From a virus: 21,157 nt of DNA. Both the position numbers and the translations under genes were made by a program. The stretch's first letter is position 1. Each line of letters opens with the position of its first letter. Of this stretch, positions 1 to 21,157 are shown piece by piece. The stretch covers positions 1 to 21,157 of IMG/VR virus record IMGVR_UViG_3300031669_007305; one strand, given 5' to 3'. Below the pieces are notes generated by a model, which was given only the letters and a program-made list of their open reading frames with translations, was not told the origin of the DNA and did no database searches.

Positions 1-932
1 GTCGTTGTGAGTGAGACCGTATAGGTGCCTGCGGCCGCATAGGTGTGACTAACACCCTGAGAATTGGACGTAGCCCCATCGCCGAAATCCCACAGCCACG
101 AAGTAATCGGAGGATTTAACGTGGTCGACGTATCGGTGAAGGTGACGGAAAGCCCGTTTATCACGTAACTGAACGAAGGGGTTGCCACTGCCACTGATTG
201 ACTAACTTGGTTAACGTTGGACGCACTATCGCCTGCGGTCAGCGTAACCGTGTAACTTCCAGCGGAGGAGTACGTGTGGACAGGGTTCTGCGCCGACGAT
301 ACCTGGCCGTCGCCAAAATCCCAGTGCCACGTATCGATCGTGCCCCCAGGCGCTGATGTGATCGACTGATCTGTAAAGGTGACTTGCAGGTCCGCTGTGG
401 TAAAATTGAATGCAGCCGTGACAGCTGGTGCTTGCGTTACCGTGATCGGATAACTGACCATAGCGGACTGTGTACCGCTATAACTATCACTGGCCGTCAA
501 GAGGACCGTATAGGTGCCGGGTAAGTGGTAGGTATGCGTCGGATTCTGGACACCGGATGTCCAATCGTCGCCAAAATCCCACAGCCATGCGGTGATGGGT
601 GGAAAACTGGTGGTACTGGTATCGGTGAACGCTACGGCCAAGTAATCAATGGCAGCGGTGAAGGCCGGCTCCGGCGCGAAGGTATTTCCACTCACTGAGC
701 CATTGGTCACCCCCGACGTAGCAACGACGATATTGCCGCTGACCGAATAACTACTGCCGTTCGCATTGGTGACCGTTAAGACCACGGTAAAGGTGGAGGC
801 CTGCCCGTAGGTGTACGTGGGATTTTGGACGGTAGAGGTTGTGCCGTCGCCAAAATCCCACAGCCAGCTCACCGGTGTCGGAGACGATTCATCAGTGAAG
901 GTCAAGGCTAGACCGTTGGCCGCCCAGGCGTA
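1..932 (-). repeat. Four tandem PKD-coding repeats
   Basis: The PKD units recur about every 230-275 bases. The most conserved DNA segment is the one encoding WDFGDG, which on the plus strand reads close to TCGCCAAAATCCCACAGCCA in the copies near 842, 567, 306 and 79. The rest of each unit has diverged strongly at DNA level, so this is protein-domain repetition and not a recent tandem duplication. Confidence 0.75.
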
Positions 933-974
933 ACCAGGAAGGATGGGGATACCGCTATCGACTGGCGTAGTCAT
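1..974 (-). CDS. PKD-domain repeat protein, probable virion/fibre protein (3' end beyond window)
   Basis: An open frame runs from ATG at 974 to the left edge without a stop, giving about 324 residues of a longer protein. It contains four immunoglobulin-like PKD domains, each with the hallmark core W-[LH]-W-D-F-G-D followed by a QNPTYTY-like strand (one copy reads QGVSHTY) and a TYTVxLT-like strand. The WDFGD cores lie near 842-867, 561-590, 305-330 and 74-98. PKD domains are non-enzymatic beta sandwiches used in extracellular proteins for binding or spacing. In a phage, a tail-fibre, capsid-decoration or receptor-contact role is the natural reading, but that is inference. There is no signal peptide. 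The ribosome-binding stretch TAGGA overlaps the stop codon of the upstream glycosyltransferase-like gene only 12 bases away, so the two are co-transcribed. More repeats probably lie beyond the left edge. Confidence 0.85.
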   Translation of the reverse strand, partial: MTTPVDSGIPILPGYAWAANGLALTFTDESSPTPVSWLWDFGDGTTSTVQNPTYTYGQASTFTVVLTVTNANGSSYSVSGNIVVATSGVTNGSVSGNTFAPEPAFTAAIDYLAVAFTDTSTTSFPPITAWLWDFGDDWTSGVQNPTHTYHLPGTYTVLLTASDSYSGTQSAMVSYPITVTQAPAVTAAFNFTTADLQVTFTDQSITSAPGGTIDTWHWDFGDGQVSSAQNPVHTYSSAGSYTVTLTAGDSASNVNQVSQSVAVATPSFSYVINGLSVTFTDTSTTLNPPITSWLWDFGDGATSNSQGVSHTYAAAGTYTVSLTT

Positions 975-2468: not shown

Positions 2469-2522
2469 AACCCACCGGAAGCGCACGATGCTGTGTCCTT
2501 TATCTCTTGGGAATTCTTTTAC

Positions 2523-4034
2523 ATGGTTGACGATATCACTGCCGCGGCGCTGTTCGGTGTCATTTACACCGACGGTAGCTGCAATGCAATAAACCCGTAC
2601 GAATCGGCTTCGCGTGGATATGCCGGGTGGGGCATGCACGGATACCTTTATACCAACGATCTCCCTAAAACGGGTTCCGGTGCCAAAAAAGGACTCCCTA
2701 CAGATAAGGGATACGATCTCAAAGGGACCGGCAAGGGAACGATCACGATCCTGAAGTACGTGGATGGTTTTGGATCGATCCCCGGTGAAGCAACCAACAA
2801 TGTGGCTGAACTGACTGCTGCCATCCAGGCATTAGAGATTGCAGTCCAACAGAAGCTTGCCGGCATCCTTATTCGCAGCGATTCGAAGTATGTGGTGGAA
2901 GGACAAAGCTGGTTGGAGAAATGGCGCAAGAACCAGTATCGTAAATCGGACGGTAACGAGATTGGCAATGTCAAACTCTGGCAGCGCATTGACGAGCTCT
3001 TGGGGTTGCTCAAGGATCTGGGCACCAAGGTCGATTTTGTCTGGGTGAAAGCCCATAACGGAAAAGATGCCGACCCGGGCAATGCGATTGCAGATCGCTA
3101 CGCGCGCCGCGGAACCCTCTGCAATCGTGAAAAGAAACCCATGGTGGAGATCGCCGTCACCGAAGCCAAGGGATATTGGAAAGCACAACACGAACACCAT
3201 CGCATGCTGTCACTGGCCAATTGGTACCTGACCACGACAGGTGAGATGGATGAAACCGCCCCTGACGGTCGGACGATCTATTACCTGGGCGATATTCGAA
3301 CGCGGGAGGAGTTTCTCGGTAAGCGCATCGGTGAGGCTTCTTTTGCGGTTGTCTATTTGAAAGATGGTGAGCCCATGTTGGATCGATTGCGCCGCCAATT
3401 CACGGAGCTGGCACAAGGGACTATACAGGGTTTGATTGTCACGAGCTTGCACGCGGTCTTTTCACCCCACGTGTACGAAGCACTGACCATGTACGGTGAG
3501 AAACTCTTGGTATTGAATCGTCAGCGACAATCCATCGAGCATATGGACAAAGCCAAGGACGAAGACAAAGAAGGTATCGAGCTCGGCCATGAGATTCGAC
3601 CAACACGACTGGCATACAGTGCCGTGGAGGTTCTCGAAACATTGGAAGGGGTCTTGAATGACTATCTGGTGCCAAAACCCACTAGCCGTTCGCGTGTGCA
3701 GGATATCACCGCACTACTGTATGAGCGCACAGAAACCTCCAAGAAGATCACTGTGAAGCTGCGCAACGAACTGCCCAGCGGTATCAAGGCTGTTGATGTG
3801 CCGGTCGTTTATTCGGCCGGAGGTGAAGATCAGTCCAAATCCATACGGTTGACGTTGGGTCAGGATCTTCCTGATCGCAATACGTTAGCCTCGCTGGCCA
3901 TGGAAGGATTGAAGGTCAGTGTGATCACGTGGCCCGAATCGCCACAAGCGTTTCGGTATGCGACCGTGATCGAGTGTGGTGACGATGTGGGAATTTGGGC
4001 TGGGCCTTACGCCAATCTTCAGCTTCTTATGTAA
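2523..4034 (+). CDS. Ribonuclease HI with a large unassigned C-terminal region
   Basis: This 503-residue protein has an N-terminal RNase HI domain (about residues 10-197). It carries the full catalytic set: Asp17 in YTDGS, Glu96 in NNVAELTAA, Asp120 in IRSDSKYV, His178 in WVKAHNG and Asp191 in GNAIADRYAR. It should cut the RNA strand of RNA-DNA hybrids using two metal ions. A roughly 35-residue insertion rich in Gly and Lys (about 41-75) separates the first strands. The remaining ~300 residues match nothing I can name; they mix helices (ANWYLTTTGE, ERTETSKK) with strand-like segments and end in a GDDVGIWAGPYAN stretch. GTG 2493 would add ten residues, but ATG 2523 is closer to the domain. The gene stands between the spanin genes and a hairpin terminator at 4043-4070. 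From memory, phiKZ-like phages carry an RNase H gene close to their UvsX-like gene, as here. Confidence 0.88.
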   Translation: MVDDITAAALFGVIYTDGSCNAINPYESASRGYAGWGMHGYLYTNDLPKTGSGAKKGLPTDKGYDLKGTGKGTITILKYVDGFGSIPGEATNNVAELTAAIQALEIAVQQKLAGILIRSDSKYVVEGQSWLEKWRKNQYRKSDGNEIGNVKLWQRIDELLGLLKDLGTKVDFVWVKAHNGKDADPGNAIADRYARRGTLCNREKKPMVEIAVTEAKGYWKAQHEHHRMLSLANWYLTTTGEMDETAPDGRTIYYLGDIRTREEFLGKRIGEASFAVVYLKDGEPMLDRLRRQFTELAQGTIQGLIVTSLHAVFSPHVYEALTMYGEKLLVLNRQRQSIEHMDKAKDEDKEGIELGHEIRPTRLAYSAVEVLETLEGVLNDYLVPKPTSRSRVQDITALLYERTETSKKITVKLRNELPSGIKAVDVPVVYSAGGEDQSKSIRLTLGQDLPDRNTLASLAMEGLKVSVITWPESPQAFRYATVIECGDDVGIWAGPYANLQLLM

Positions 4035-7546: not shown

Positions 7547-8221
7547 ATGGCGCGTAACCGGAAGGAATTCATCGATTTCGTGGTGAAGTATTTGGATAAG
7601 TTGCTGCCTGGCGGCGAGAATAGCACATATATGCGCGGCCGGCTGGAAGCCATGAGCCCCGACCAGATGGATGCCTACGTGGCTAAGTTGGCTTCGGGGG
7701 ATGAAATTATCCCCCTAGTAGCCCCCAGTTTACACGATAAGAAAATCACCATCGAGAACAATTTCAAGGTCGCGAAGGAATTGGGGCATGATTTCTTTCA
7801 CCACTTGCGATTGACCGACCCAGCCACGGGGACGGTGTATCTCACGCCGGAGAAGTATCTGGTAATCGATATTCCTGTCAGGCGCCAACGTCAGCTTCAG
7901 CGCAAGAAGATCACCATCCCGCAAGGTACGCGACATGTCGATGAACTTTCCGGTCAAGTCACCGGTGCCTCCCGTGGTTCGAAGATCTCCATGCCTGAGC
8001 TTCAAGTGCTTTATTCGCAAGAATTGACACAACCCATCGTGGAACTCATCAAATACCGCGGAGGCGATATCAAGGGGCAGCAGCTCTTGTACCGATCTTT
8101 AATGGAAACGGGACATGCGTCACAGAAAGCACTCTCGGTGACCCCCACTTCGGTTCGCTCCACGCAGGTCTTGGGGATTCTCTTCAACGCCATGCACCTT
8201 TCCACTACCTTGAATACATGA
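7547..8221 (+). CDS. RNA polymerase beta-subunit C-terminal-like protein (phage multisubunit RNAP piece)
   Basis: This is 224 residues, with AAGGAT before ATG 7547. Residues 100-190 can be laid on the C-terminal part of bacterial RpoB. YLVIDIPV matches the strand YMYMLKLNHLV; a segment with conserved spacing leads to SKISMPELQVL at 145-155, against QRFGEMEVWAL; then VELIKYRGGDIKG at 165-177 against LQEMLTVKSDDVNG; and finally a Tyr-containing helix and a closing helix. In RpoB this region contacts the beta-prime clamp and packs near the active centre. phiKZ-like phages encode beta and beta-prime in separate pieces for a virion and a non-virion polymerase. From memory, phiKZ gp149 is the C-terminal beta piece of the virion enzyme and lies a few genes from UvsX and RNase H, as here. 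The alignment was done by eye. Whether this belongs to the virion or non-virion enzyme is inference, with the virion enzyme favoured. Confidence 0.65.
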   Translation: MARNRKEFIDFVVKYLDKLLPGGENSTYMRGRLEAMSPDQMDAYVAKLASGDEIIPLVAPSLHDKKITIENNFKVAKELGHDFFHHLRLTDPATGTVYLTPEKYLVIDIPVRRQRQLQRKKITIPQGTRHVDELSGQVTGASRGSKISMPELQVLYSQELTQPIVELIKYRGGDIKGQQLLYRSLMETGHASQKALSVTPTSVRSTQVLGILFNAMHLSTTLNT

Positions 8222-12769: not shown

Positions 12770-15217
12770 TTAAGGACGATCAGTGCCGCGAACCATACCG
12801 GAGATGAGCTGGCCAATGGATGTACCATTGGCCCACCCTGCCGCGTGTGCGGGTGACTTGAAGGTATCGTAATCCAGGCGGGCCTTATCGCGTGCGATGG
12901 ACCACTTCCGCAAGGGATAGACCTGGTCTTTCCAATCCAACGCACCGAGAACCGCCAAGTAATCGGAGAAATTGCTGTAGTCGGAATAAGGGCCCGAGGT
13001 CAAGTACGAGGCCACGGATGTCCCTGTGGAGCCACCTTGCGAGGCATTGGTATTCATTCCCAAGGCACCTGCCAACGAGCCGGTAGCAGTGCCGATGGCA
13101 TCGCCTGCCCCCATGATGGCTTTATCCAACGTTCCAGTGGAAGCAACGACAGGCATGTACATCATGGATGAATAGTCAGTTACGGTGAAAGAGATATCAA
13201 TGCCCAAGGGAAGCATATCCGGCGTCCAGCCAATATTACCCGTACCGCGTGTGATGGTCATGTCCGAAATAATACCGTTGCGAATCTGCATACGGCCTTT
13301 CGCAAAGATCTGGCACGAGAAAGGCGCATTCCATGATGAGGCGCCCGTGGCCCGTGGCATGACACCAGCCAGGAGACACGCCAGGGGAAGATAGATGTTC
13401 TGCAACAACGCCAATTTGTGCCCTGACCATGAACGTAATTCAATGGTGAAGGTTTGGTTGGGCATCGTCACGGACGAGGAGTCGTAGACGTTGGGAATAT
13501 CGACGTACGCGGCACCGGCCAAGGCCGCCAGTCCTGAAATATGCAGGCCGTTGGCAATTCCCGACACCAGATCCCCCACTGCACTGGTGATACCACCTAC
13601 TACCTTTCCAAGGGCTCCCCCTACGAGATTACCGCCCGCCATATCGAAGGAGGTCATGCGCGACTCGGAGGACTTGGAATTGATTTTCGATTGCAAATCA
13701 GAAGGTCGGGTCGAGTTACTGAAGGACTCGCCAATCGTCCCACCGTAATCCGTACGGAAGGTAATGTACTGGGAACCGTCCGAGAGATCGGCTTTGAGGG
13801 AATCCCAGAACGCCCCCCACCAGTCGGCAATTTTCCCCGAGAAACTGGTATCGGACGACTTACTATCAGGGGGTGCAGTCGATGACGGCGCTGGATTGGA
13901 CGAGTTTCCCGTAGTCCCCGAGGTCCCGCCGGTATTGGTTGAACTCTGTGTGGCTGGAGTGCCGGTGGCCGTATCTTGGGACATGGTTTCCACCGTGGCC
14001 GAGTTGCCGTCACTGGTATCGTTATCCGCGGCCGAACCACCTGCCCCCTTCAAATAGGCGGGAAGGACATCTTTCAGGTACTTTGTCGGTGGTCGAGTCA
14101 GGTTTCCGCCAATGACGCCCAGGAGTCTCTGTTGGAGATTCGAGCCGCGCGTGGCCTCATCCAAGGCTTTTTGCACCCGTTTGGTGAATTGATCGGCCAA
14201 ACGCTGAGAGCGGTTCGCGACAGCATAAACATCGATGTAACCGCCCTGTGCCTTGCCGTTAACATCCTTGGAGATCGGAATGTAGATATCCGGCAAGAAT
14301 GCCGACATGGCTCCGATATCGTCCTCGATACCAGTGGTATCATTACTCCATGATGGCGAGTTGGGATCCTTATACATGGTCTGCTGGAAGGCATTCAATT
14401 GGCGATTATGGATACCTAAATTGGCGGTAATGCCATTTAGCATCGTATTGACTGCATTCCAATACACCGGCATCGTTGGCTTGAAATAACTGAACTTCGT
14501 TGACGGAATATTCAACGCGCTCTTGATCACCTTCGACCCAAAGATGATGGGGGCAAAAGGTACCGACAAGAGGTAACCGGCAGCTGAACCCAAATGGAAG
14601 AACAAGCCTTTCGCGCGACCTGTACGCACGATCGCCGAGGCATTGGAATCGTAAAAGTTACCAAAGAACGATGACAGTGAGTTGAAGGCCTGCACACCAA
14701 AGGACATCGTAATCAACTGTGCATTATCGTCGATGATATCCGAGTAGGCCCGGCCCATGCCGAAAGATCCTTGCGTCGTCATCGTCGTGCGATCGGGGGC
14801 GTTTTGATAACGGTGATCGCCACCCATGGTGACATCGGAGAATTCCGTGTACTGTGGCGGACAGTTGATCGGCCAATTGCCTCCCAACGTGGTGTCCGTG
14901 TATTTCCAGGCAGCGGTGGTAAAGATGCGCCGCGCCATGTCTTGAGTGGAGATATCGTCCAAGATGCCGTTATTACCCAACGTGTTGAGCATGAACGCTT
15001 GGCGAATCCAGCTTAAGTTGGTGATGCGGTCGGTGGTCAGGAAGTCAGCGATCGAAGCCGGCAACGTGACATCAGGAGTGGTGACAAACGAGGCCGGTGG
15101 ATACGCCGGACTGGGAGTGATCGGCAGCCCGAGTTTATCGTGAGTTGGATCATGAGCAGCGAGTGCTGCACCTTCGATTTGGTTATATAGGGCATTGAGC
15201 TGTGAAGGAACAGACAT
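12770..15217 (-). CDS. Probable virion (tail/baseplate) structural protein, 815 residues
   Basis: The start is ATG 15217, with a weak GTGGGA upstream and a TATG element about 41 bases before it. The N-terminal ~390 residues are globular-looking, with helical and aromatic segments (SFGVQAFNSLSSFFGNFYD, MPVYWNAVNTMLNGITANL). They are followed by a low-complexity Ser/Thr/Gly/Asn/Pro linker at about residues 392-460. The C-terminal part contains a Gly/Ala helix (GKVVGGITSAVGDLVSGIAN), then IELRSWSGHKLALLQNIYLP, GRMQIRNGIISDMTITRG and PLGIDISFTVTD, and a final DYLAVLG / VYPLRKW segment. I recall that C-terminal pattern from structural proteins of jumbo myoviruses but cannot name the part. A tail or baseplate role is inferred. 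It follows the SLT gene with a terminator between them, so it can be expressed separately. Confidence 0.65.
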   Translation of the reverse strand: MSVPSQLNALYNQIEGAALAAHDPTHDKLGLPITPSPAYPPASFVTTPDVTLPASIADFLTTDRITNLSWIRQAFMLNTLGNNGILDDISTQDMARRIFTTAAWKYTDTTLGGNWPINCPPQYTEFSDVTMGGDHRYQNAPDRTTMTTQGSFGMGRAYSDIIDDNAQLITMSFGVQAFNSLSSFFGNFYDSNASAIVRTGRAKGLFFHLGSAAGYLLSVPFAPIIFGSKVIKSALNIPSTKFSYFKPTMPVYWNAVNTMLNGITANLGIHNRQLNAFQQTMYKDPNSPSWSNDTTGIEDDIGAMSAFLPDIYIPISKDVNGKAQGGYIDVYAVANRSQRLADQFTKRVQKALDEATRGSNLQQRLLGVIGGNLTRPPTKYLKDVLPAYLKGAGGSAADNDTSDGNSATVETMSQDTATGTPATQSSTNTGGTSGTTGNSSNPAPSSTAPPDSKSSDTSFSGKIADWWGAFWDSLKADLSDGSQYITFRTDYGGTIGESFSNSTRPSDLQSKINSKSSESRMTSFDMAGGNLVGGALGKVVGGITSAVGDLVSGIANGLHISGLAALAGAAYVDIPNVYDSSSVTMPNQTFTIELRSWSGHKLALLQNIYLPLACLLAGVMPRATGASSWNAPFSCQIFAKGRMQIRNGIISDMTITRGTGNIGWTPDMLPLGIDISFTVTDYSSMMYMPVVASTGTLDKAIMGAGDAIGTATGSLAGALGMNTNASQGGSTGTSVASYLTSGPYSDYSNFSDYLAVLGALDWKDQVYPLRKWSIARDKARLDYDTFKSPAHAAGWANGTSIGQLISGMVRGTDRP

Positions 15218-15313: not shown

Positions 15314-18300
15314 TTACCCGTACTGTGGTCTCGCCATAGATACCGGAGCCCGTGGGAGTGTGGCCGGTTGAGGCCTTCCAGCCATGGAAGCGTCATCCGT
15401 CCTGGATGCCCCTGATGGAGCTCCCTGGATCGAGGCAGTATCCGTACTTTGCCCTGACAACCCCCCTGCTTTGGCGATACTCGGTAACGCACCGGTATTG
15501 CTTTCGATCGAGATCAGGACGGCCACGGCTTTGGAGAGCAAATCCGTTTGCTGTTTGAGGTACGTTGAAATATCTCCCGTCCTGGCCATTTGTGCTTGCG
15601 CAGTGGCCTGTGCTTGGCGGTCAGCCATGACCGCCTTATGTTGCTGCGCCGCTTGAGCCACCATCACGGGATCGACTGTGGAATCATTCGCTATCGCCGG
15701 CATCCCCGGTGCGACAGACGGCATGATCAGATGCGCCGAAGGCTTTCCACCCGATGGCGGTGCGATCGATGCCAAAGCCGCCGTACCGGCCGCTGCCGCG
15801 GCAGCGGAGCCCTTCGGATGCACTGTCTCTGCTCCTAAGCCGCCCTTGGTACCGTTGGCCGTGGTGGTGGTTTTACTCGCCACCCCTGCCGACGTACTGG
15901 CCATTTCCGTATTGGGCGATGCAGTGGGTAGTGTCGGTTCGGAGGCTGATACCTTCGAGCGAAATTTACCTACTTTACCATCCAACAACTTCACGACCTG
16001 TCCCTTAGTCAATGCCGTACCGCTTCGATAAAAGATCGAAGCATTGGATGCAGCAGCTTTGGGGGAAACCGCTGCCGCAATGGCTTTATCCGGAGCGGAA
16101 AGCAACTGCACCGCCCCGGCAGGGCCGAGGAAATGCGCAATGTACAGCTCCGTATCGGTGGGAGGGCGTCCTAAGCGCTTGGTTAGGTATCGTTGATTCT
16201 CCTTAATGAATTCACCAAGCATGAGCGCCGAAGCACGCGGATCGGTCTGAGGGGTGTTGGGATTGATGCCATACTTCGCACCGTACTTCGCTAGCATGGC
16301 TCGCCACGTCGAATCAAGGAATTGACCTAAGCCCTTGGCAGATGACGTGCCTGCTTTGGCATTGGGATTCCAGGAAGATTCAATACCCGTGAAGATACCC
16401 AACAACTTGGGATCCATACCGGTCATTTTCGCCGCCGCATCCAAGGTAGCCTTGACTGCCGCATAACCCCGTCCAGTAGGTTCCGGCACCTTATTGATGT
16501 CGCCAACCGTGCCGTGCCCCGGTTGGGCCACGGGTTGACCGACAACGGCACCCGGTTTCCCAGCAGCGGCTGCAATGGATTGTGCCACCGCCGATCCGGC
16601 TTCAACGCCACGCGGCAATGCCACTGCCTGTTGGAGTTGAGGTTTGGTGGAAGCCGACGATGCCGTCGCTCCAGCAGCTGAAATACCGTCCTTGGCGCTT
16701 GTCGTCCCCGTCGGAGTGGTTTGTTTCTTCGCGGCAGCTTTGGCCTCTTGCTCCTGCAAGACCTGTTTCTTTACTGCATCCTTCAACGCCTGAATATTGG
16801 CTTTAGTGCTATTGGAATCAGCGTTCAACGGTGTGTTATCGCTAAACGGTGTCTCAGTAAAGCTCCATACCGAGGCAGTGGTCAGTTTCGAGCCAAAGGT
16901 AGCTGCGACCGTCATGGTCGCCACATCCAACAGATGGGCAGGCCCCAATCGATTCTCCGCGTCCCGCGGATCGATCATCTTGTTCGCATGCTTCACAGCA
17001 GTAGCGTATTGCAGGATCGTCGGTACAAAGCGTTTGGCGAACCAGCTGTACCAGCGAAGCTTGGCATCCTTGTCCGTGGGCGATACCCCGAAATACCCCT
17101 GGTAATGATCGAAGTAATAACTGGCATCGTCGGTGAAACTGGCCGTACCGTCACTGGTGTACTGGATCTTCTCGAAGACATCCTGCTCCAAGAGAAAGAG
17201 CGCTTTGGCTTTAGTGGGATCCATCTTGGACAAACCGTAGGTCTTGTAACGAACTGCTGTCAAGGCCGAGACCTTCCCGCCCAAGAAGCCAAAATCTGAC
17301 TTCAGGTGCGAGGTGGCCGTGAGGCCGACCTTACTGGCGACGTTCTTACCCGAGGCATCTTTGGTGGCTGCCACCAAAGCCCCAACCGAGGCTGCGGCAC
17401 CACCTGCTGCCGTAATGGCGGCCTTGGCTGGAATCGCACTCTTTAGACCACCCACGGACGCCACGAACGCATTGGCGATCGCACTGGCCGAGGTCGGCCC
17501 TCCCTTACCATCTCCCTTTTCCGGACCCAGATCTTTCAGTACTGCCAACTGGGCCGCCGCGACTTCTTTCTTCCCGGCAGTGAGTGGATCATCCTTGAAA
17601 GGAGACGTCATCTGATCGTAAATATTCGGCGCGATGGTCATCACTTGTTTCAGCAGCGCGCGTTTCTGTTCGGGCTTCAATACGTCATCGACATCCGAGA
17701 TCGACAGACCTTCTTTCTGCGCATGGACTGCTTGAATCCAATGCAGGAAGACTGGCTTGAATCGCTTGTCCATCCAGGTACCGAGTGCCTGCTGCTGGTT
17801 GGCTTCCTTAGCCGTACCATGATGGAACCAGTTTAATGGGTTCCAGTTACTGCGATAAAAGCCGAAGATCTTGGTGACCTTGATCAGATCAGCCTTCTTC
17901 ATCGTGCGCGCGTTGATGGTGGCCGTACCGGCACTGACTGTGGTGTGGGGTTCGAGCAACCCTTCGAGTTCTCCGACGATCTTGGAATTGGACAAATCCT
18001 TGTCCACATCCACACCGTACTGGGCCATGCGTAAACTCCGTAGCTTCATGCTACGTAGTTTGTGGTTACTGTAAAGCTTGTAAGCGCCGTAGGCGAGCGC
18101 GCCAACAGCCAGAGCCCCTAGGACCACGGGGGCACTGATGACAGCCGCTATACCGCCTAAAATAGAGCCTGCGGCCCCTGCGGCACCGGCAAGCAGACCA
18201 CCACCTTCAGCCACTGCACCGGCGGTAGCTATTCCTTCGGCAGCCGTCGTTCCCGCCACCGCCGCTTCACCCAGTCCAGCAGCGCCTTCCACGGCACCCA

Positions 18301-21157
18301 CTGCTCCTTCTGCTCCTTCGGCGCCTTCGACCAATTCCCCACCACGTCCAAGATTCTTGGCCATGTTGAAAAGTTTCTTGCCCTTACCCAAGAATCCCTT
18401 ACCGCTTTTGAGATCCTTCCAGTAACCCTTGAGTTTGCGGAACTTGTTCAAGATACCACTGCCTGAACTACCACCGCTACCGCCATGGTGAATATCGTCC
18501 ATTTCGCCGGTGGCGGCGGTACCGTGGGGATGCGCTATCGCGTGGCGCTGTGCCGCCTCTTCAGCGGCATGCTCTTTCAGTTCTTCCTGGAAGGTACCGG
18601 TGCGTTTCTTGGTCGGTTTGGTCAAACGTTCTTTCAAGGTAACGAGTATGTCATTTAACAGCCCGTGGGTCTTTTCGTCTTTTGTCGGTAAACCGTCTTT
18701 GGGCATTTTCAGTTTACGACCAAACGGTCCCATGCCGAGAAAATGCGAAAGGAGATTAAAGGGCGCTGCCGCGACCTTACCGCCGAGTTTGGCCATCGCC
18801 CCGAGGGTATGGACAAAAGCTCCTGCCGCGGCACCACCGGCGCGCAGCACACCACCTACGAGCCTGGCCGTCATGGACGCTTTGATCGGGAAGCGCTTAC
18901 CCCGAGCATCGACCAATCCCTTGTCGAAGTCTTCCTTGAAGATTTTCTGTTCCGGATGGGGACCGGAGATCTTCATGACCTCGCCGGTGATGTCATGCAC
19001 ATTGCGGATCTTCTTGGACGGCTTGTCCTTGAGAACGTAAATGCCTGCCCTCATACCCATCGCGGTCAGACGAGGTTCCCACGGTTGATCCCCTTTGACA
19101 TAGACGTCCACCGGCATTTTGGCGAGTTTAAACACCTCACCCACGACTTTTCCGATAGCCCCGATGGCCTTGATAGGTGCGGTGATCAGACTGCCGTAGA
19201 ACCCACCTAAGACTTTGGCTGTCGACCACAATCCCCGAATGACATTGCCGAAGAACGAATGGCCCTGGTTATCGGTTAACTTCTTCTTGTAATCCTCCAG
19301 GCTAATCAGTGTATTGCCGTCGGCGTCGATCACCGGACCACCGATGTCCTTTGGCACCCGAATAGGCTTGCCGCGTTTACCGTCGGGATTCACATTGAAA
19401 TAATGTCCCGCCTCCATGGCGCCTTTGGTCAGTCGAGGTGTCTTCTCTCCCTTGACGAAAACATCCGCCGGCTCGGTACCCATGTGGGTGCGATCGAACC
19501 CACGCCCCGCAAAGGCTGCGACCTTACCCACTGCACGGAACGGTAGTCCAAATGCCGTTTTCACGTAATTGCCATAGAGCCCAGCGGTTTTCTTGACCAT
19601 GCCACCGATGCCAGTGATGCTGTTTTTGGCACCGGTAAGGATCGACTTCTGCCACCAGTGTTTCTTCTTACCCCCTTGACCAGGGGTACCTGAGATATTC
19701 CCTCCAGTTTGCGTGAAGTCGCGATCGGATAGCACTTCCAAGATGTCATCCAGGAGCTTGAGATTCCCTTCCTTGAACGCCGTGACCAATTCCACCATCG
19801 TCGATGCGACATCCGGGGTCGTGGTTGGCTGCATAGCCTCGTGAATGCTGGCCGTCGCTGAGGACGCCGCTGAAGCCGTGCGTTGAAACGTGGCTTCACG
19901 CCCTTCCGGCGTGAGAACTGTATGCCCCAATGGGGTTTCTTTGGCGGCTTCCGAGACCTTGCTCAAACCCTCTTGAACTTTGTCCACCAGATCCGAGAAC
20001 TTCTCACCACTTTCGGTCCGCAATTCATCGATGACTTCCTGCGGCGTTGCGATCCAATCGCCCGTATGCGCATCCTTGACGCCTTCGGCAAGATTACGTA
20101 CATCCTTGATCACACGACCCGACTGGGCGGAGACGTATGCACCGGCTTTGAGTTTGGCTTCTTCAATCACCGGTGCCGCCTTGGATCCCTTAAACAGATC
20201 CATGGCGTACGCCCCCACGTTCATCGCTTTTTTCCAATGGCGTTTCACGGAGGTGATCAGGGAATCATAGATCGAGGGAGCTTCGCTTTTCACTTTCGAT
20301 TGCACGGATTGAGCGGCTTGTGCCACACTGGCGGCTGCTGACTGCACTGCATGGACTGCTTGAGATGGTGCTCGCTGAGCCGCCGCTTTGACCTGAGCCT
20401 TCGCCTCCTGTGCGGCTTGGCGCCGCCCTGTCCGGGTCCGTAACCGCCGTCCAGCACCGTGCTCCATGAAAGTATCGACTTTATCGCCGACACCGGATAG
20501 CTTCTCATCCAGCGCTTCGCTGACCCGCGTCAATCGCCCTTTCGTGGCATTCACGGACTTCTTGGAGGTTTGCAGAAATTCCAGGAAGGGCTCGCCGCTG
20601 CCGGTGACTAGTTTACTGATCTCCGCTGCGGTGGCCACTACGCGGCCACTGAGTAAGACACCGCCGACAAGCTGCCTCATCAGGACAATAGGCTCGCCTG
20701 TCTTGGCATTTTGATACTTACCCATCGACACGTTCGATGCCAGAATGACAGGCGAGTTCATGTCCGAGGGATGGTACAGATTGACGTAGGTCTCTTGACT
20801 GCGTTGGCGGAACGATACCTTCTCCCGACCTGCGGCAGCCAGGTGGTCCTTACGCCCCACGGGTGAGGTCACTGGCCCTGTGGCTTGCTGCCCGACCATG
20901 TGATTCACGAACGTATCGTGATTCAACATGACATGATCGCCTTCTTCGGTCACGACCCCCAATTTGCGCAGGTCACTCATTGCACCCAGTTGGCGATAGG
21001 CGTCGATCTGGGCACTGACATTGGGCGTCGTATTGCGCACCACATCGTACTTACTGTGGAGCTGCGCCAGAAGCACCTGATCCGTACGGCCGTTGGACCC
21101 TTTCAAGCGACCCCGCATTTGTTGCATGATTTCTTTGCGATGCTCGGCCAGGTGGGG
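15314..21157 (-). CDS. Very large virion protein with lytic transglycosylase (SLT) domain (5' end beyond window)
   Basis: The frame stays open through the right edge. ATG 21127 has no ribosome-binding site and ten further codons upstream read on, so the start lies outside; 1947 residues are visible. Counting from ATG 21127: repeated modules at about 110-176, 315-388, 551-631 and 670-761 alternate with Gly/Ala amphipathic helices; a strong hydrophobic stretch lies at 988-1018; a roughly 150-residue domain occurs twice (about 1025-1183 and 1288-1430); and an SLT domain lies at about 1560-1720. In the SLT domain, GIESSWNP carries the catalytic Glu1583, followed by KGLGQF and AHFLGPAGAVQ. This domain cuts the peptidoglycan glycan strand. 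With the hydrophobic segment and great length, the protein resembles the tail-associated cell-puncturing or tape-measure proteins of jumbo phages, probably used during DNA entry. From memory it resembles phiKZ gp181; this is not verified. Confidence 0.82.
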   Translation of the reverse strand, partial: PHLAEHRKEIMQQMRGRLKGSNGRTDQVLLAQLHSKYDVVRNTTPNVSAQIDAYRQLGAMSDLRKLGVVTEEGDHVMLNHDTFVNHMVGQQATGPVTSPVGRKDHLAAAGREKVSFRQRSQETYVNLYHPSDMNSPVILASNVSMGKYQNAKTGEPIVLMRQLVGGVLLSGRVVATAAEISKLVTGSGEPFLEFLQTSKKSVNATKGRLTRVSEALDEKLSGVGDKVDTFMEHGAGRRLRTRTGRRQAAQEAKAQVKAAAQRAPSQAVHAVQSAAASVAQAAQSVQSKVKSEAPSIYDSLITSVKRHWKKAMNVGAYAMDLFKGSKAAPVIEEAKLKAGAYVSAQSGRVIKDVRNLAEGVKDAHTGDWIATPQEVIDELRTESGEKFSDLVDKVQEGLSKVSEAAKETPLGHTVLTPEGREATFQRTASAASSATASIHEAMQPTTTPDVASTMVELVTAFKEGNLKLLDDILEVLSDRDFTQTGGNISGTPGQGGKKKHWWQKSILTGAKNSITGIGGMVKKTAGLYGNYVKTAFGLPFRAVGKVAAFAGRGFDRTHMGTEPADVFVKGEKTPRLTKGAMEAGHYFNVNPDGKRGKPIRVPKDIGGPVIDADGNTLISLEDYKKKLTDNQGHSFFGNVIRGLWSTAKVLGGFYGSLITAPIKAIGAIGKVVGEVFKLAKMPVDVYVKGDQPWEPRLTAMGMRAGIYVLKDKPSKKIRNVHDITGEVMKISGPHPEQKIFKEDFDKGLVDARGKRFPIKASMTARLVGGVLRAGGAAAGAFVHTLGAMAKLGGKVAAAPFNLLSHFLGMGPFGRKLKMPKDGLPTKDEKTHGLLNDILVTLKERLTKPTKKRTGTFQEELKEHAAEEAAQRHAIAHPHGTAATGEMDDIHHGGSGGSSGSGILNKFRKLKGYWKDLKSGKGFLGKGKKLFNMAKNLGRGGELVEGAEGAEGAVGAVEGAAGLGEAAVAGTTAAEGIATAGAVAEGGGLLAGAAGAAGSILGGIAAVISAPVVLGALAVGALAYGAYKLYSNHKLRSMKLRSLRMAQYGVDVDKDLSNSKIVGELEGLLEPHTTVSAGTATINARTMKKADLIKVTKIFGFYRSNWNPLNWFHHGTAKEANQQQALGTWMDKRFKPVFLHWIQAVHAQKEGLSISDVDDVLKPEQKRALLKQVMTIAPNIYDQMTSPFKDDPLTAGKKEVAAAQLAVLKDLGPEKGDGKGGPTSASAIANAFVASVGGLKSAIPAKAAITAAGGAAASVGALVAATKDASGKNVASKVGLTATSHLKSDFGFLGGKVSALTAVRYKTYGLSKMDPTKAKALFLLEQDVFEKIQYTSDGTASFTDDASYYFDHYQGYFGVSPTDKDAKLRWYSWFAKRFVPTILQYATAVKHANKMIDPRDAENRLGPAHLLDVATMTVAATFGSKLTTASVWSFTETPFSDNTPLNADSNSTKANIQALKDAVKKQVLQEQEAKAAAKKQTTPTGTTSAKDGISAAGATASSASTKPQLQQAVALPRGVEAGSAVAQSIAAAAGKPGAVVGQPVAQPGHGTVGDINKVPEPTGRGYAAVKATLDAAAKMTGMDPKLLGIFTGIESSWNPNAKAGTSSAKGLGQFLDSTWRAMLAKYGAKYGINPNTPQTDPRASALMLGEFIKENQRYLTKRLGRPPTDTELYIAHFLGPAGAVQLLSAPDKAIAAAVSPKAAASNASIFYRSGTALTKGQVVKLLDGKVGKFRSKVSASEPTLPTASPNTEMASTSAGVASKTTTTANGTKGGLGAETVHPKGSAAAAAAGTAALASIAPPSGGKPSAHLIMPSVAPGMPAIANDSTVDPVMVAQAAQQHKAVMADRQAQATAQAQMARTGDISTYLKQQTDLLSKAVAVLISIESNTGALPSIAKAGGLSGQSTDTASIQGAPSGASRTDDASMAGRPQPATLPRAPVSMARPQYG
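15960..16450 (-). other. SLT lytic transglycosylase domain within the large virion protein
   Basis: The segment encodes LLGIFTGIESSWNP (catalytic Glu codon at 16379-16381), SSAKGLGQFLDSTW, the ELYIAHFLGPAGAVQLL segment and the ASNASIFY end. This order is typical of goose-type/SLT lysozymes, including the phage forms such as phiKZ gp144. All the motifs I would look for are intact, so activity is expected. Confidence 0.85.
16818..18050 (-). repeat. Two copies of a ~150-residue domain in the large virion protein
   Basis: The copies are encoded at about 17578-18050 and 16818-17268. They share an LRxxxYG / VRYKTYG beginning, a helix with acidic residues, a central large-aromatic segment, WMDKRFKPVFLHWIQAVHA against WFAKRFVPTILQYATAVKH, and a TSPFKDDPL / ETPFSDNTPL end. 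Divergence is high, so the duplication is old. Confidence 0.65.
18845..20800 (-). repeat. Diverged repeat modules (DVYVKG-type) in the large virion protein
   Basis: The clearest pair is encoded at 19235-19475 and 18845-19120. Each has D-V-[FY]-V-K-G, P-R-L-T, A-G-x-Y, I-R-x-x-x-D-I-x-G and a DY/DF-centred helix, and each is preceded by a Gly/Ala helix starting YGxx. Weaker copies lie at about 19965-20185 (AGAYVSAQSG...) and 20600-20800 (MGKYQNAKTGEPI...). Boundaries are estimates. Confidence 0.55.

Follow-up and report, generated by a model that had tools for sequence, protein, structure and literature searches.

The DVYVKG repeats encoded by the large open reading frame at one end of this viral DNA are real, old, and structural, since one to three copies occur at matching positions in almost all related giant phages. 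The stretch that we analyzed (the window) is the entire 21,157-base virus record IMGVR_UViG_3300031669_007305, and both window and record end inside the repeat-bearing gene, whose product is a probable tape measure protein and tail-associated murein hydrolase of the phiKZ gp181 family. The repeated modules are predicted to be small, independently folded alpha/beta domains, arranged like beads on basic amphipathic helices. The gp181 family is known already; for its DVYVKG module we found no earlier description in the parts of the literature that were available, which did not include the full text of the 2008 gp181 papers.

Table 1. Features of the gp181-type gene, its product, and the adjacent gene (nt, window positions; aa, residues of the partial protein).
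Feature	aa	nt	Strand	Remarks
phiKZ gp181-family tail protein ORF	at least 1947 aa	15314-21157	minus	N-terminus cut by window end
Module b1, weak	127-188	20594-20779	minus	held-out profile 15.8 bits at aa 132-188, E 6e-7
Linker b1-b2, 130 aa	189-318	20204-20593	minus	predicted helices
Module b2	319-384	20006-20203	minus	held-out profile 27.9 bits at aa 324-384
Linker b2-b3, 180 aa	385-564	19466-20005	minus	YGNYVKTAF near C-terminal end; low AF2 confidence
Module b3 (DVFVKG)	565-632	19262-19465	minus	held-out profile 64.9 bits
Linker b3-b4	633-683	19109-19261	minus	basic amphipathic helix; contains YGSLITAPIKA
Module b4 (DVYVKG)	684-753	18899-19108	minus	held-out profile 47.1 bits
Strongest TM-like segment	1003-1021	18095-18151	minus	Kyte-Doolittle mean 2.36 over 19 residues; within Gly/Ala-rich stretch
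C-terminal repeat, first copy	~1030-1210	17528-18070	minus	score 67 vs second copy
C-terminal repeat, second copy	~1290-1490	16688-17290	minus	pair score 67
Lytic transglycosylase (SLT) domain	1556-1733	15959-16492	minus	PF01464 above cut-off; conserved Glu at aa 1593
phiKZ gp182 homologue, next gene downstream		12770-15217	minus	phrog_3181; relative of solved tail tube initiator

To locate the modules, we used a profile of 64 positions derived from 22 other proteins, with the window protein held out. This one profile unites all four copies, which score 15.8–64.9 bits, whereas the best score among 500 block-shuffled window proteins was 2.4 bits. The preliminary description had placed at least two clear and two weaker copies between positions 18,845 and 20,800 and had named scores no better than those of shuffled sequence as a refuting outcome; the copies are borne out, and this refuting outcome did not occur. 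Direct comparison of b3 with b4 gave a score of 80 (shuffles 27±5, maximum 51), and b1, whose closest match within the protein is b2, aligned with it at a score of 70 (shuffles 24.6±4.3, maximum 52). The cross-pairs b1-b3, b1-b4, and b2-b3 were marginal (p ∼0.015–0.026), with the b1-b4 match falling out of module register; b2-b4 was not significant in pairwise comparison, and direct self-BLAST of the window protein returned nothing beyond the self-match. The conserved core measures ∼64–70 residues instead of the 75–90 first proposed, and the suggested periodicity holds for the last pair, whose starts lie 119 aa apart, but not for the earlier starts, which are separated irregularly by 192 and 246 aa. 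A second, larger repeat pair toward the C-terminus also scored above shuffled sequence (67 versus 31±5, maximum 57).

Structure prediction with AF2 yielded the same ∼65-residue alpha/beta domain for all four copies, mostly at pLDDT 90–97. In the prediction of aa 505–850, b3 and b4 were modeled at pLDDT 92–97 (b4 at ∼95–97) with identical order of strands and helices; in that of aa 110–400, for which the input alignment contained other module copies and so favored like folds, b1 and b2 were mostly at 90–97 and b2 mostly above 90. The two-module predictions agree with each other, so that the other refuting outcome named beforehand, unrelated folds of the modules, did not occur either, and Foldseek searches with the b3-b4 and b1-b2 models mostly led to one and the same group of viral proteins of very large size. 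In BFVD, every match with E < 0.001 was to a very large phage protein, and all those with a name fit the gp181 family. No curated Pfam model exceeded its cut-off for the module and no PDB entry matched its fold, in keeping with the initial impression that no named domain shows this pattern. Weak Pfam matches to DUF2944/2946, DEP, DUF3659, and DUF6944 were discarded, as each was below cut-off and confined to one member. The PDB matches of profile A4 were to coiled coils or designed helices only, arose from low-complexity linkers, and were judged spurious.

We then surveyed the module across giant phages, drawing on 80 proteins' worth of IMG/VR loci, gathered with SLT alignment A2, and on 23 annotated phages; this gave 83 distinct module proteins, including that of the window. 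One copy was found in 5, two in 59, and three in 18 of the 82 other proteins, so that the four of the window protein are the maximum. Start-to-start spacing had a median of 115 aa (interquartile range 111–119). In a tree of copies, with modules numbered from the C-terminus, the nearest neighbor shared the position number in 166 of 181 cases, compared with at most 103 after shuffling of labels, a difference that is to be taken as support and not as a strict probability because sequences of related phages are not independent. This positional orthology indicates that the majority of copies were inherited from an ancestral set instead of arising anew in individual phages. Judged from sequence and structure prediction, the last two modules are present in nearly all members at matching positions, and an upstream copy was gained in the window lineage, probably by duplication of b2. 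None of the other ORFs of 106 loci yielded the module. Two relatives, L074 (1796 aa) and L104 (1720 aa), are phrog_3201 members that adjoin a gp180 homologue and have no modules; no gp182 homologue was detected downstream of either. Because this lineage exists without them, the modules are not indispensable.

The sequences between modules had been described as hydrophobic, Gly/Ala amphipathic helices of ∼45 residues, and only part of this description stands. In 90 distinct regular linkers of the family, the median length was 50 aa and the mean net charge +6; the hydrophobic moment at 100 degrees was 1.60 compared with 1.13±0.03 in shuffles, and at 160 degrees it fell below the shuffles. The regular linkers are therefore, as far as sequence can tell, ∼50-residue basic amphipathic helices, and AF2 also predicts helices, partly at low confidence. 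Gly and Ala are barely enriched (24% versus 22% in whole proteins), and the linkers are basic rather than hydrophobic. None of the 90 contains a 19-residue window of transmembrane grade, and the clearest TM-like stretch of the window protein (aa 1003–1021) falls outside the repeat region, beyond the modules; both findings speak against a pore inserted into the membrane through the linker helices, as originally suggested. Two weaker TM-like windows occur at aa 157–175 and aa 1246–1264, the former of which lies within b1 and is therefore unlikely to be a membrane segment.

Assignment of the window protein to the phiKZ gp181 family rests on homology and gene order. The phrog_3201 family matched it with E = 2e-223 in five stretches, the best covering aa 890–1943, and homology to phiKZ gp181 and phrog_3201 spans most of its length. 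In relatives, the gp181-type gene is situated between an opposite-strand virion RNA polymerase gene and a gp182 homologue, the order of phiKZ 180-181-182, and in 65 of 69 metagenomic loci the gp182 homologue is directly downstream. The comparison with phiKZ gp181 proposed at the outset was thus well placed. The divergent upstream polymerase gene is seen in relatives, the window ending before the gp181-type gene does; alignment of window aa 316–477 with aa 668–836 of Xanthomonas phage LucasX places ∼350 N-terminal residues outside it. The product of the downstream gene matched PDB 9xqs, PHIKZ182 (E = 4e-97), and 11lx, "Tail tube initiator complex protein gp203" (E = 5e-91); a third match, 36za, carries the label capsid decorator. 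By tblastn, 264 phage records matched the window protein, and those listed were all giant phages except the 167-kb JM-2012. Public labels for the family vary among tail fibre, endolysin, chitinase, and hypothetical protein.

Elsewhere in the window, an open-ended ORF (3–974, minus strand) carries several tandem WLWDFGDG..T.NP.HTY units that appear PKD-like by eye and may belong to a surface or fibre protein. A 513-aa RNase H-type protein (2493–4034, plus) matches phrog_3265 and phrog_531, and a 224-aa ORF (7547–8221, plus) matches phrog_3233, RNA polymerase beta subunit, a label that may come from neighbors.

The C-terminal part of the protein presents a slot for murein hydrolases. The SLT domain of the window protein matched the structure of phiKZ gp144 (3bkh) with E = 1e-34, and Glu1593 is invariant in alignment A2. 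SLT domains occupy this slot in the window, phiKZ, and JM-2012; GH19-type enzymes fill it in FLC9, where the match exceeds the Pfam cut-off, and in Goslar, EaH1, and CF8, where it falls short; and peptidase M23 is found in Yong MS32 and BONAISHI. All of these named members carry modules. Free exchange of the enzyme while the modules stay argues against a module role tied to one wall chemistry. Across the gp181 homologues L005, L008, L010, L004, and L024, the slot is filled by differing murein hydrolases (SLT, GH19, M23), and the public annotations (tail fibre, chitinase, endolysin) vary to match. Separately, we note that PDB 9xps chain S is deposited as phiKZ endolysin gp144 under a code close to that of 9xqs, and that gp181 has a gp144-like domain.

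The protein is large, its gene adjoins that of the initiator, and it combines helical linkers with a TM-like segment; for these reasons we favor a tape measure over a puncturing device as the nature of this family, and adjacency to a tail tube initiator homologue is typical of, though not strictly defining for, a tape measure gene. Published tail lengths are 190 nm for BONAISHI (two copies), 200 nm for phiKZ (three), and 240 nm for pVa-21 (two). In these three phages only, the values correspond to 0.089–0.103 nm of tail per residue and would need 60–69% of residues in extended helix, a possible but weak fit to an extended-helix tape measure. We found no solved structure that matches a phiKZ-like tape measure protein.

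What the modules do is a matter on which we lean, tentatively, toward folded beads, within a tape measure and tail lysozyme, that do their work close to the inner membrane while ejection proceeds or once it has taken place. In such a sequence of events, the sheath would contract and the protein would then exit the tube; the hydrolase would open the cell wall; the folded modules and basic amphipathic helices would settle on the face of the inner membrane; and together they may help the TM-like segment at aa 1003–1021 to organize a passage for DNA and the virion RNA polymerase. The phiKZ 180-181-182 synteny, the predicted module folds, the basic amphipathic linkers, and the exchangeable hydrolase slot are consistent with this action, as is the diffocin tape measure, whose wall-degrading and TM parts are proposed to refold after ejection (PMC10996793, in the parts available). 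Against it, coiled-coil packing within the tail would suit the basic amphipathic helices just as well, the L074/L104 lineage has no modules, and the family has also been published in another role, as discussed below. The more specific proposal, that a new domain, fixed as a pair or triplet in a phiKZ-like tape measure, forms with its helices an inner-membrane ejection device that passes DNA and virion RNA polymerase after contraction, we regard as rather doubtful.

The chief rival of an action on ejection, and one that is almost as likely, is that the modules are structural beads of the resting tail, folded in the tail or hub chamber, where they would self-associate or anchor, keeping the bundled tape measure aligned or tethering this bundle to the tube initiator or the hub. 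Positional orthology and the near-fixed 115-aa spacing suit such a role, as do the retention of modules while the enzyme is exchanged and the conserved initiator gene alongside. However, if the protein is a trimer, three globules of 64 residues at one level would, as estimated from their mass, take up ∼5.5 nm, more than the 4.5-nm lumen given for the phiKZ tail in the available part of PMC7909554; the estimate does not argue against staggered modules or a site in the hub. The irregular spacing of the upstream copies in the window protein also fits poorly.

That gp181 forms part of the tail spike as a needle-like trimeric puncturing device, with the modules as spike domains, appears unlikely to us. 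phiKZ gp181 is listed as such a device in the available part of PMC5380687, and this listing also weighs against an action of the modules on ejection. Yet no T4 gp5/OB-fold, beta-helix, or spike Pfam family is present in the 1947 aa, the module has no PDB fold match to support a spike domain, a protein of >1900 aa with long helical linkers is at odds with a needle, and a homologue is named tape measure protein by the SPN3US group. Modules that bind the wall or envelope and keep the hydrolase at its substrate are more improbable still: the enzyme is on the same polypeptide, but it lies at least 800 residues from the modules, which are kept with three types of hydrolase and show no resemblance to known binding domains in Pfam or among PDB folds. 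The length ruler first suggested, in which module plus helix is a tape unit and copy number sets tail length, has very little in its favor beyond the narrow spacing and the probable tape measure nature of the protein, since copy number hardly tracks protein length (r = 0.15), the three tail lengths, too few for the comparison to have power, show no trend with it, folded domains gain little length per residue, and the module-less lineage keeps the protein.

phiKZ-like phages have to bring a very large genome together with a multisubunit RNA polymerase through the inner membrane, and for the study of this step the module offers a concrete handle. Being a defined, conserved, and expressible unit of ∼65 residues with known boundaries, it lends itself to structure work, deletion tests, and better annotation.

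Among known systems, the diffocin tape measure CD1366, a long tube-lumen protein, offers an analogy of working; DVYVKG modules are not reported for it in the available part of its description (PMC10996793). SPN3US gp239 (2372 aa) belongs to the same family as the window protein by BLAST and has the same neighbors, but unlike the window protein it has only one module copy above threshold (34 bits). In the available parts of PMC5694885, PMC10052503, and PMC5105663, it is named tape measure protein and is placed in the tail from mass-spectrometric data on virions versus tailless particles, a placement that concerns this homologue only (PMC10052503, PMC5105663). The closest annotated relative is a hypothetical protein of LucasX (2459 aa) with copies matching b2, b3, and b4, its module at aa 672 aligning with b2; unlike the window protein, it has no detectable b1. 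Finally, phiKZ gp181 (2237 aa), a tail-associated peptidoglycan hydrolase, is homologous to the window protein and shares its SLT domain and the gp180 (virion RNA polymerase)-gp181-gp182 order of the family, but carries three module copies compared with four in the window protein, which adds the upstream b1 and an irregular spacing.
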